From contig JAJPKN010000020.1 of the NCBI GenBank assembly GCA_021323695.1, positions 1-64,000 on the forward strand: DNA of 64,000 nucleotides, read 5' to 3'. The translations under genes were made by a program, and so were the position numbers. Origin of the DNA: Actinomycetota bacterium. GTDB taxonomy: Bacteria; Actinomycetota; Acidimicrobiia; Acidimicrobiales; Palsa-688. The notes beneath the pieces are model-generated. The model worked only from the letters and a program-made list of their open reading frames with translations. It did no database searches and was not told the DNA's origin. Shown here in pieces: positions 12,467 through 60,093 of the stretch (its first letter is position 1; each line of letters starts with the position of its first letter).

Positions 12467-12979
12467 ATGGCTTCTTACCGGATCCGGACCTTTGGCGACC
12501 CGGTCCTGAAACGCCGTGCCGAAGAGGTCACGGAGATAAACGGCCGGGTGGCCCGCCTGGCCGAGGACATGTACGCCACCATGAAAGAGGCCCGAGGCCT
12601 GGGCTTGGCCGCTCCCCAGGTGGGGGTGGGGCGCCGGCTGTTCGTCTACGAGCTGGACGACGGCGGCCCCCGCACCATCGTCAACCCGGTCATCGACGAG
12701 GCCCAGGGAGAGTGGGAGTTCGAAGAGGGCTGCCTGTCTGTCCCCGGCCTGTACTTCCGCATCACCCGGCCCAAGCAGGTCCACATCAAGGGCTACGACC
12801 TGGACGGCCGTGAGGTGTCGATCGAGGCCGACGAGCTGGAGGCCAGGCTGTTCCAGCACGAGCTGGACCACCTGGACGGGCGCCTGCTGCTGGAGCTGCT
12901 GGACGACGACCAGCGCAAGGCGGCCATGCGGGAGCTGAGGAGGCGGGCGGAAGGCACGGCGGGCCCAGGGGCCCTGTGA
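12467..12979 (+). CDS. def: Peptide deformylase
   Basis: The 170-residue enzyme removes the formyl group from new polypeptides. All three metal/active-site motifs are present: GLGLAAPQVG, EGCLSVP and QHELDHLDG. The ATG at 12467 is chosen because it gives the family N-terminus (MASYRIRTFGDPVLKRRAEEV) and follows a -10 box at leaderless spacing. It is paired with fmt, which adds the formyl group. Confidence 0.96.
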   Translation: MASYRIRTFGDPVLKRRAEEVTEINGRVARLAEDMYATMKEARGLGLAAPQVGVGRRLFVYELDDGGPRTIVNPVIDEAQGEWEFEEGCLSVPGLYFRITRPKQVHIKGYDLDGREVSIEADELEARLFQHELDHLDGRLLLELLDDDQRKAAMRELRRRAEGTAGPGAL

Positions 12980-13016
12980 CCGCGCCGCGGGCCGAGGCCC
13001 AGGTGGCGGCCTGGCC

Positions 13017-13880
13017 GTGAAGCTCGCGTTCTTGGGCACCCCCGAGGTGGCGGCCTCGGCCTTGCGGGCGTTGCACCAGGCCGGTCACGACGTCCGCATG
13101 GTCGTCACCCGGGCCGACGCCCGCCGGGGCCGAGGTGGGCGGCTGGGGCCCAGCCCGGTCAAAGTGGCCGCAGCCGAGCTGGGCCTGCCGGTCGCCTACG
13201 AACCGGCCGCCGCAGTCGGCTCGGGGGCCGAACTGGGGGTGGTGGTGGCCTACGGCCGCCTGGTCAAGCCCGAGGTGCTGGCCGCCTTGCCCATGGTCAA
13301 CCTGCACTTGTCGTTGCTGCCCCGCTGGCGGGGAGCGGCACCGGTCGAGCGGGCCGTGCTGGCCGGGGACACCGAGACGGGAGTAAGCCTCATGGCCCTC
13401 GACGAGGGGTTGGACACCGGGCCGCTCTACGCCCAGGTGGCAACCGCCATAGGCCCCGAGGAGACAGCCGACGAACTGCGCCAGCGGTTGGGCCGCCTGG
13501 GCACCGACCTCCTGTTGGAGCGGCTGGGAAGGGGCCTGGGCGACCCCCTGCCCCAGTCCGGCCCGCCGAGCTACGCCGACAAGCTGAGGCCCGAGGAGCT
13601 GCGGCTGGACTTTTCCCAACCGGCCGTGCAGTGCCACCGGGTAGTGCGCGTGGGGCGGGCATGGACCACCTGGAGAGGCCGGCGGCTACTGGTCCACCGG
13701 GCGCGGGTGGCGGGTGCCGAGGCGGGCCTTGCCCCCGGGGAGCTGCGGGGGACGCTGGTCGGGACCGCCCAGGGAGCCTTGGAGCTGGTCGTGGTCCAGC
13801 CCGAAGGCAAGCCGGCTATGGGCGCCGCCGACTGGGCCCGGGGCGCCCGGCCGAGCCCGGGCGAGCGCCTGGGCAGGTGA
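13017..13880 (+). CDS. fmt: Methionyl-tRNA formyltransferase
   Basis: The 287-residue product formylates initiator Met-tRNA. MKLAFLGTPEVAASALRAL is the typical start, and NLHLSLLPRWRGAAPVERAVLAGD together with EGLDTGP carry the catalytic Asn, His and Asp. The protein is slightly shorter than the usual 310 or so residues because the C-terminal domain is compact. The GTG start lies 37 bp after def, and its end overlaps rsmB by GTGA. Confidence 0.95.
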   Translation: MKLAFLGTPEVAASALRALHQAGHDVRMVVTRADARRGRGGRLGPSPVKVAAAELGLPVAYEPAAAVGSGAELGVVVAYGRLVKPEVLAALPMVNLHLSLLPRWRGAAPVERAVLAGDTETGVSLMALDEGLDTGPLYAQVATAIGPEETADELRQRLGRLGTDLLLERLGRGLGDPLPQSGPPSYADKLRPEELRLDFSQPAVQCHRVVRVGRAWTTWRGRRLLVHRARVAGAEAGLAPGELRGTLVGTAQGALELVVVQPEGKPAMGAADWARGARPSPGERLGR

Positions 13881-35896: not shown

Positions 35897-36217
35897 ATGG
35901 CAGTGAAGCTCCGCCTCATGCGGATGGGCAAGACCAAGCAACCCACCTACAGGGTCGTGGCGGCAGACAGCCGTTCGCCTCGGGACGGGCGCTTCATCGA
36001 GGTCCTGGGTACCTACGAGCCCCGCCAGGAGCCAACCCGGGTGGTGCTGGACGCCGAGCGGGCCCGTAGGTGGCTGCAGGAAGGTGCCCAGCCTACCGAC
36101 CGGGTCAGGCGCATCTTGGTGGGCCAAGGCATCTTGGGCGGCGCCCTTGGAGCAGCCACCTCGGCCGGGAGCCCCCGCCTGTCACCCGCCACCCGGGAGC
36201 GACCTTCGGCCCAGTGA
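35897..36217 (+). CDS. rpsP: 30S ribosomal protein S16
   Basis: The 106-residue product carries [42 protein letters not shown] and the DRVRRIL region typical of S16. The C-terminal 25 residues ([26 protein letters not shown]) are a non-conserved tail. AAGGA lies upstream of ATG 35897. Confidence 0.96.
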
Positions 36218-36240
36218 CTGACCAGTTCGATGTCCGGTGA
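36214..36240 (+). other. Eight-codon mini-cistron bridging rpsP and khpA
   Basis: GTG 36214 overlaps the rpsP stop (GTGA) and opens MTDQFDVR, whose TGA overlaps the GTG start of khpA (GTGA). The first twelve bases, GTGACTGACCAG, are identical to the first twelve of khpA 23 bp downstream. This could be a relic of a tandem duplication that keeps translational coupling intact. Confidence 0.4.
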
Positions 36241-55745: not shown

Positions 55746-56085
55746 ACGAGCGCGCCTACCCGGACCTGCATCGGGTGCCGGGCACGGGAGCCTGCCGATA
55801 GACTTGTCCGTGTAGCCCTGGAGGCCGACGGCCAGGTGGTCATCAGCCGGGGCGCGCCTGGCCGTGGTGCGTGGCTTTGCCAGTCCGCCACCCCTGGGCT
55901 CCCCAAGCCCGAGTGCTTGGCCGCGGCCCGGCACAGGGGTGCCTTCAGCAAAGCTCTGCGTGCTCCGGTGGCTGACAGTGAGCTGGAGGTGCTGCCCATG
56001 GCCAGCACCAAAGGTGCGAGGATTTGGGGCAGGGGATTTCTCCCGGGTGCCCAAAGGGGACCGAAGGAAGGGACCAGCAAGCAAC

Positions 56086-56093
<8 letters not shown>
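55746..56093 (+). CDS. ylxR: YlxR (DUF448) RNA-binding protein with apparent ACG start
   Basis: The frame right after the nusA TAA reads TSAPTRTCIGCRAREPADRLVRVALEADGQVVISRGAPGRGAWLC...PECLAAARHRGAFSKALR, which is a complete YlxR protein with its RTCIGCR and GRGAWLC motifs. No ATG, GTG or TTG occurs before GTG 55836, and starting there would delete half the fold. ACG 55746 is therefore the most likely start, probably reached by ribosomes that have just terminated nusA. Alternatives are an ATG-to-ACG change making a pseudogene, a base-call error, or stop read-through. The usual order nusA-ylxR-infB supports the identity. About 115 residues. Confidence 0.75.
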
Positions 56094-59342: not shown

Positions 59343-59630
59343 TTGCACGCCGCCGTCCTCGACCTCGACCTGCACATACCCCAGGCGCGCTCGCTCAAGG
59401 ACAAAAGGGCTGTGCTGAAACCGATCCTCGAAGGCTGCCGCCGGCGTTTCTCGGTGGCGGCAGCCGAGGTGGGGGCCCAGGACCGCTGGCAGGCCGCCGA
59501 GCTGGGGGTGGCTGCTGTAGCTTCCAGCGCCCAGCACGTGAGCGACGTCTTGGACGCGGTCGAGCGCTTCGTGTGGTCGTTCCCCGAGGTGGAGGTGGTC
59601 TCGGCCGAGCGGTGCTGGCTCGGGCCATGA
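59343..59630 (+). CDS. ylxP: DUF503 family protein YlxP
   Basis: The 95-residue protein (HAAVLDLDLHIPQARSLKDKRAVLKPILEGCRRRFSVAAAEVGAQDRWQAAELGVAAVASSAQHVSDVLDAVERFV) is the small ferredoxin-fold family found between infB and rbfA in Gram-positive bacteria. Its exact role is unknown; the position suggests ribosome biogenesis. The start is TTG, 5 nt after infB. Its TGA overlaps the ATG of a mini-ORF at 59627. Confidence 0.92.
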   Translation: MHAAVLDLDLHIPQARSLKDKRAVLKPILEGCRRRFSVAAAEVGAQDRWQAAELGVAAVASSAQHVSDVLDAVERFVWSFPEVEVVSAERCWLGP

Positions 59631-59731
59631 GCCGTGCCGCGAGCAGCCCGTGGGCGGGAGGCGCCCCGGCCAGGGTGGGTGGGCTGGCCGCCCGCCCGGG
59701 CCAGGGCCAGCCGGGGCAGGCTGGGCGATGA
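59627..59731 (+). other. 34-codon mini-ORF bridging ylxP and rbfA
   Basis: ATG 59627 overlaps the ylxP stop (ATGA). The frame runs MSRAASSPWAGGAPARVGGL and on for 34 residues to a TGA overlapping the rbfA ATG (ATGA). It begins ATGAGCCGTGC where rbfA begins ATGAGCCGGGC, 101 bp later. The Gly/Ala/Pro-rich peptide looks like no known protein. Confidence 0.4.
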
Positions 59732-60093
59732 GCCGGGCGACGGGCGCCCGGCCCGGTGCGCACAGCTACCCGCGTGTGGCGCGGCTCAACGAGGTCCTGC
59801 GGGAAGTCATCGCCGACGAGATCGAGAGGGTAGCCACTTCGGACGAACGGCTGGAGCTGGTGACGGTGACGGCTGTGCTGTGCGACCCCGACCTGCAGCA
59901 CGCGACCGTCCTGTTCGCGTCCCTACCCGAGGGCGCCAGGGCGGCTTTGAGCCGTGCCCGCCCCCGCCTCCAGTCAGCCGTGGCCCACCAGGTGAAGCTC
60001 AAGCGGACGCCGCAGCTGGCCTTTGCGGCCGACCCCGTGGTGGCCCAGGGCGAACGGGTGGAGCAGGCGCTGCGTTCGCTCCACGACCAGTGA
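59728..60093 (+). CDS. rbfA: Ribosome-binding factor A
   Basis: The 121-residue protein binds the 30S platform during late assembly. PRVARLNEVLREVIADEIERV, LVTVTAVLCDPDLQHATVLFASL and HQVKLKRTPQLAFAADPVVAQGERVEQAL fit the KH-like fold. ATG 59728 is chosen for the conserved N-terminus; an in-frame GTG at 59650 would add 26 low-complexity residues. The stop overlaps truB by GTGA. Confidence 0.93.
   Translation: MSRATGARPGAHSYPRVARLNEVLREVIADEIERVATSDERLELVTVTAVLCDPDLQHATVLFASLPEGARAALSRARPRLQSAVAHQVKLKRTPQLAFAADPVVAQGERVEQALRSLHDQ

Follow-up and report, generated by a model that had tools for sequence, protein, structure and literature searches.

A short reading frame spanning the ylxP-rbfA spacer of an Actinomycetota bacterium and the recurrence of such bridging frames between neighbouring genes

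The window analysed here is a stretch of 64,000 nucleotides from an Actinomycetota bacterium whose genome comprises 3.2 Mb in 74 contigs. Within the window, the genes ylxP and rbfA are separated by a G+C-rich spacer that is crossed from end to end by a short open reading frame. The terminal ATGA of ylxP (59627-59630) contains the ATG that opens this frame of 34 codons, and the TGA of the frame (59729-59731) overlaps the ATG of rbfA at 59728. As rbfA itself opens with ATGA (59728-59731), the stop of the short frame overlaps the start of the next gene, and the frame thus shares 4 nt with the ylxP stop and 4 nt with the rbfA start. This is the layout that had been described in the initial annotation of the window, and the sequence places the frame at 59627-59731. 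Two further junctions in the window are bridged in the same manner. The names rpsP, khpA, def and fmt, as well as cofD, cofE, rmlC, tyrA and aroA used below, are presumptive assignments made from the protein sequences. The features are as follows.

59343..59630, forward strand: ylxP (DUF503), with a TTG start and a stop inside ATGA (Pfam DUF503, E 1.8e-31, and the sequence)
59627..59731, forward strand: bridging frame of 34 codons between ylxP and rbfA, read from the sequence and its translation
59631..59727, forward strand: ylxP-rbfA spacer of 97 nt, 87% G+C
59728..60093, forward strand: rbfA (Pfam RBFA, E 1.7e-19, and relatives), with an alternative in-frame start GTG at 59650
36214..36240, forward strand: bridging frame of 8 codons between rpsP and khpA, with a 23-nt tandem duplication
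12976..13020, forward strand: bridging frame of 14 codons between def and fmt, with GTGA at both ends, the third case in the window

The placement of the rbfA start at 59728 rests on homology and falls short of proof because the in-frame GTG at 59650, 19 nt past the ylxP stop, also exists. The protein encoded by the 34-codon frame matches no Pfam or NCBIfam family. The spacer has a G+C content of 87% compared to 71% for the whole window, and it is 37 nt long in the other examined species of the genus (G001). A separate observation concerns ylxR (window 55746-56093, forward strand; Pfam PF04296, E 2.3e-16, with the match starting at position one of the profile), which directly follows the TAA of nusA in the frame of nusA. 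No ATG, GTG or TTG precedes the conserved start of ylxR, and the first such codon is the GTG at 55836 in the middle of the domain; an odd start codon, readthrough or a sequence error could each account for this.

Taken alone, the ylxP-rbfA bridge is not clearly beyond chance, in agreement with the caution of the initial annotation that a single case would be weak. The beginnings of the frame (ATGAGCCGTGC) and of rbfA (ATGAGCCGGGC) are equal in 10 of 11 bases, the single mismatch having been noted before, and the two ends of the frame form a 23-nt repeat that is 78% alike over a distance of 101 nt. When the region was shuffled 200 times, 30 of the shuffles contained a self-match as good as this one. 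Moreover, open frames are cheap at this junction because the 97-nt spacer consists of 87% G+C. The spacer was also considered as a repeat, and this candidate was rejected: among 41 matches in its own genome at E up to 10, the best non-self match (78% over 65 nt) lies within an open coding frame. The own-genome search yielded no second copy of the spacer, and thus not the dispersed repeat family that is a criterion for mycobacterial interspersed repetitive units (MIRUs), nor did it yield a source of inserted DNA. A special RNA structure was likewise rejected since z-scores of -0.88 (59600-59760) and -0.96 (59690-59760) indicate that the stability at the junction is what the composition gives. 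Because one bridge in a spacer of such composition is a weak case, the recurrence of the arrangement was tested, and the recurrence is beyond chance.

The ylxP-rbfA junction was examined in 32 genomes of the family, which belong to 16 genera. In 18 genomes the two genes share 4 or 1 nt; they are separated by a 1-nt gap in five and spaced by 16-97 nt in the remaining nine (G000, the genome studied here, G001, G010, G022, G028, G018, G004, G026 and G009), which fall into the genera g1, g4, g9 and g10. All nine gaps (16, 19, 37, 46 or 97 nt) are 1 mod 3, a property that is independent of the choice of the rbfA start. In eight of the nine spaced junctions, a bridging frame (34, 8, 17, 13, 7, 7, 7 and 7 codons) has its stop on an rbfA start, and it begins on the ylxP stop with a 4-nt overlap in seven cases and with a 1-nt overlap in one (L030). 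The sequence of the spacer is not conserved in the relatives, and neither a length nor a sequence is shared at this junction. In G001, which belongs to the same genus, the frame is open but headed by CTG (L002). CTG-headed frames of bridge layout were also observed at the def-fmt junction of genus g7 (L289 and L297); all three could be either decayed bridges or frames using CTG starts.

In a tree of up to nine proteins, g1, g10, g3 and g4 form one clade, of which g3 has the direct overlap, and g9 is placed elsewhere, its exact position being weakly supported. Because the tree separates g9 from these four genera, the ylxP-rbfA bridge would have arisen twice or more, or else once long ago with later losses. 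Judged from its distribution, the bridge predates the species. In the wider order, 38 of 91 loci from beyond the family have ylxP upstream of rbfA. Bridges end at the rbfA start in two of these loci (L053 and L060), and three spaced cases with an NTGA stop (N being A, G or T) are without a bridge (L025, L054 and L139).

Six further junctions that are bridged in this genome were compared in the relatives, with conserved genes being chosen from the list of bridges and rpsP-khpA being taken from the initial annotation. Among the usable relatives, a direct 4-nt overlap is present in 25 of 28 for rpsP-khpA, 5 of 20 for def-fmt, 18 of 27 for cofD-cofE, 8 of 9 for rmlC-cofD and 16 of 28 for tyrA-aroA. 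At the sixth, an acyltransferase junction (C33), none of the usable relatives has the overlap, and the upstream frame looks doubtful and spurious. Some relatives are bridged as well, namely G022 at rpsP-khpA, G003 and G025 at cofD-cofE, G010 at rmlC-cofD, and G017, G011, G005 and G019 (by a looser rule also G010) at tyrA-aroA. At several junctions, a bridge thus stands in the place of a direct overlap. Since many relatives have the overlap, the bridges at the five other junctions look derived from it. The direction of change from overlap to bridge is suggested by the majority state of the relatives and one tree rather than by a formal reconstruction.

When six junctions including ylxP-rbfA were scored by one rule and without G000, 13 of 16 spaced junctions with an NTGA stop were bridged compared to 6 of 14 with other stops (p 0.035); with genus-by-junction units, the comparison reads 9/10 versus 4/7 (p 0.16). 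For this test, 26 unusable loci and the acyltransferase junction were left out, and L010, L365, L372 and L387 leave the spaced class because of another in-frame start between -60 and +3. A locus with two consecutive bridges lies on contig C46 of G000 at about 58.8-59.9 kb (L157), where a rmlC-like gene, a frame of 5 codons, cofD, a frame of 8 codons and cofE follow each other; it looks like an F420 operon.

As to the source of the inserted DNA, the initial annotation had attributed the spacers to local duplication, and this holds for its companion case: between rpsP and khpA, GTGACTGACCAG is present twice, 23 nt apart, a 12-base exact repeat that was reached in 0 of 200 shuffles, and the inserted DNA there is clearly a 23-nt tandem duplication. 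A local duplication is also plausible for rpsP-khpA in G022. For ylxP-rbfA the attribution fails, as the likeness of the ends is within chance and the bridge predates the species. Local duplication as the general origin was rejected: at least 6 of 8 bases after NTGA are alike in 4 of 31 bridged pairs (two of them being the cases of the initial annotation) compared to 19 of 930 cross pairings. Furthermore, the three genomes of genus g3 carry dispersed copies of a palindromic repeat of ~50 nt (TTCTTGYAGACG...CGTCTRCAAGAA), and a copy lies in the cofD-cofE spacer. The search returned 17 rows for G003 and 7 each for G017 and G025, some rows being both strands of one copy (L336-L364), and none for G000, G004 and G010 at the same threshold. 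In G003 and G025 (L313 and L314), one copy lies within a 33-codon bridge (TTGA..GTGA) between cofD and cofE.

A genome-wide count against a control had been proposed in the initial annotation. For this purpose, genes were called by a simple codon-usage caller made for the analysis, the starts being predictions, in a pooled sample made up of 1,217,385 bases from this genome and 800,000 from three relatives (G019, G004 and G008), which contains 1212 same-strand pairs. A frame opened at -4 closes on the next start only if the gap is 1 mod 3; pairs with gaps of 4-250 nt that are 0 or 1 mod 3 were counted. Set aside were pairs with gaps of 2 mod 3 (78 NTGA, 86 CTGA and 90 other), gene pairs scoring <15 and gaps outside 4-250. 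NTGA comprises ATGA, GTGA and TTGA, and CTGA served as a control with the same layout and no usual start. Bridges that end at the predicted start of the next gene number 30 among 103 pairs with NTGA, 19 among 196 with CTGA (p < 5e-5) and 40 among 385 with all the other stops (p about 1e-5). At the rate of these other stops, 10.7 NTGA bridges would be expected, so that the observed number is about three times the expectation and chance would account for roughly one in three of the 30 bridges; after shuffling of the stop classes within genomes, 30 was reached once in 20000. If any candidate start is allowed, the counts are 48/103, 55/196 and 112/385, respectively. The ylxP-rbfA bridge is itself missing from the 30 because the caller set the rbfA start too far downstream (59776). 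Across the sample, the bridges comprise 3-47 codons.

The first 852 kb, where 17 of 51 NTGA and 7 of 71 CTGA pairs are bridged, gave rise to the hypothesis, and the remainder is new, with 13/52 versus 12/125 (p 0.009). The excess is carried by G019 (4/14 NTGA versus 5/45 CTGA) and G008 (5/13 versus 2/23). G004 (2/8 versus 2/26) has just 8 NTGA pairs and contributes little or nothing, and the second piece of this genome (G000b, 365 kb) is without excess, with 2/17 NTGA versus 3/31 CTGA and 10/64 for all other stops. By gap, bridges are found in 13/34 versus 7/31 at 4-30 nt (p 0.14), 11/35 versus 8/65 at 31-80 nt (p 0.02) and 6/34 versus 4/100 at 81-250 nt (p 0.02). An A follows the next start in 35 of 75 NTGA pairs with a gap of 1 mod 3, in 7 of 28 NTGA pairs with a gap of 0 mod 3 and in 30 of 117 CTGA pairs with a gap of 1 mod 3. 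Thus, bridges are commoner in this bacterial group than the matched control predicts in the pooled sample, with the excess being absent from some subsets. The proposed recurrence and the count suggested for it are borne out in the pooled sample and not in the 365 kb of G000b.

Frames opened by a 1-nt overlap of the TGATG type show no frame bias (gaps of 0, 1 and 2 mod 3: 6, 6 and 11). A gap of 1 mod 3 was rejected as evidence by itself: it proves little because 8-nt overlaps and other stops give it too. Indeed, it is frequent with other stops (224/385), and among orthologue pairs with a direct junction in one genome and a spaced one in another, all 7 TAG rows show it. Weak Shine-Dalgarno sequences at bridged starts were also rejected, with a match of >=4 being present in 17 of 31 bridged starts versus 133 of 234 direct overlaps and 265 of 688 other spaced starts.

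Coupling of neighbouring genes via overlapping stop and start codons is widespread. The ylxP-rbfA frame is probably a relay that keeps rbfA coupled to ylxP across the 97-nt spacer. A ribosome finishing ylxP on ATGA would restart at the overlapping ATG, read 34 codons whose sequence is irrelevant, stop on the ATGA of rbfA and restart again, so that rbfA would remain coupled to ylxP over 97 nt. Without the bridge, the spacer would break termination-reinitiation and uncouple rbfA because, according to a study on native E. coli gene pairs, reinitiation drops by 40-80% with an additional 14 nt and almost ceases with 38 nt (PMC10666635). Such a bridge could arise if DNA with a length of 2 mod 3 was inserted or duplicated within an ancestral direct NTGA overlap: the old start would still sit on the first gene's stop, and the frame it opens would happen to terminate on the second gene's start. 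DNA inserted into a coupled junction may then be retained when two-step coupling persists. We infer that the bridges are translated and retained for the sake of coupling, and that they keep translation continuous is a fair inference. More tentatively, and with somewhat less than even confidence, bridges may be a class that is generally under selection in these high-G+C bacteria, the surviving insertions in coupled NTGA junctions being those in which the old start runs exactly into the new one.

It is rather doubtful, though worth taking seriously, that the arrangement is a coincidence of composition: G+C-rich spacers are mostly open, NTGA stops and starts are common and a third of the gaps is in the right frame. 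The identical layout in 40 of 385 pairs with other stops, the 87% G+C of the spacer, the lacking excess in G000b and the likeness of the ylxP-rbfA ends within that of shuffles fit such a coincidence. However, the threefold pooled excess depends on whether the stop contains a usable start codon, the following start shows a frame-specific enrichment of NTGA, and a bridge is present in 8 of the 9 ylxP-rbfA junctions of the family that are spaced. RbfA might also be longer, the spacer being its coding start from the GTG at 59650 or an equivalent codon, and length changes in multiples of three would therefore follow from the RbfA frame. In line with a longer protein, this genome has its in-frame GTG 19 nt past the ylxP stop, and GTG codons occur at gap 4 in L007, L010 and L011 and at gap 10 in L002. 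Further in-frame starts lie at -14 in L010 and at 37 in L006. Yet in L003, L008 and L030 the RbfA frame offers no further start codon from the ylxP stop up to the bridged start, the spacer sequence is unconserved and the Pfam RBFA match begins 16 residues past 59728, which makes this explanation improbable. That the frame constitutes an independent small protein gene, packed into the operon via ordinary 4-nt overlaps, is most improbable. Although bridges after NTGA are slightly more coding-like (mean log-odds -0.16 for 25 bridges versus about -0.30 for 29 after other stops, p 0.026), the frame lacks a Pfam or NCBIfam match, and the bridges at this junction, with 7-34 codons, share no sequence among relatives, and lengths across the sample run from 3 to 47 codons.

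If bridges are selected, seemingly non-coding spacers are read, operon coupling is much commoner than counts of overlaps say, and many tiny intergenic frames are explained without calling them proteins. Frame statistics would then be a cheap test of which gene pairs need coupling. If they form a general selected class, operons would stay coupled by serial restarts whatever is inserted, including mobile palindromic repeats as in cofD-cofE of genus g3. A search of listings and opening lines of abstracts of open-licence papers turned up no account of frames that bridge genes at both ends being in excess across a genome.

The bridge would work like the upstream ORFs (uORFs) acting by termination-reinitiation and like the MIRU ORFs. 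The primary paper on MIRU ORFs is reportedly that of Supply from 1997. According to a review, a MIRU ORF is a short ORF in inserted DNA that is coupled by -4 nt to the next gene, and this coupling is described as likely softening the effect of the insertion; uORFs delivering ribosomes are also described (PMC12548453). The ylxP-rbfA bridge shares the internal ORF and its -4 nt coupling to the gene downstream. However, it is not a MIRU because its spacer is no repeat, and the examined bridges are without an evident common sequence family. In M. tuberculosis, the AUGA-overlapping uORF uPPE2 drives the translation of PPE2 mainly via termination-reinitiation, as shown by reporters, and the authors speak of a relay and a landing pad (PMC11260477). 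There too, the TGA of a short frame overlaps a gene start (NUGA overlap), but the uPPE2 uORF sits in a leader behind a riboswitch and has its own start (PMC11260477), whereas ribosomes would reach the ylxP-rbfA bridge from the stop of the gene before it, resulting in two successive restarts. Short frames delivering ribosomes to the next gene are likewise described for the minigene upstream of txe in axe-txe (PMC8708949) and for bicistronic designs in biotechnology (PMC12548453). Unlike the ylxP-rbfA bridge, the txe minigene starts inside the upstream region and not on a previous stop, and the stop of mg2 lies 15 nt before txe (PMC8708949).
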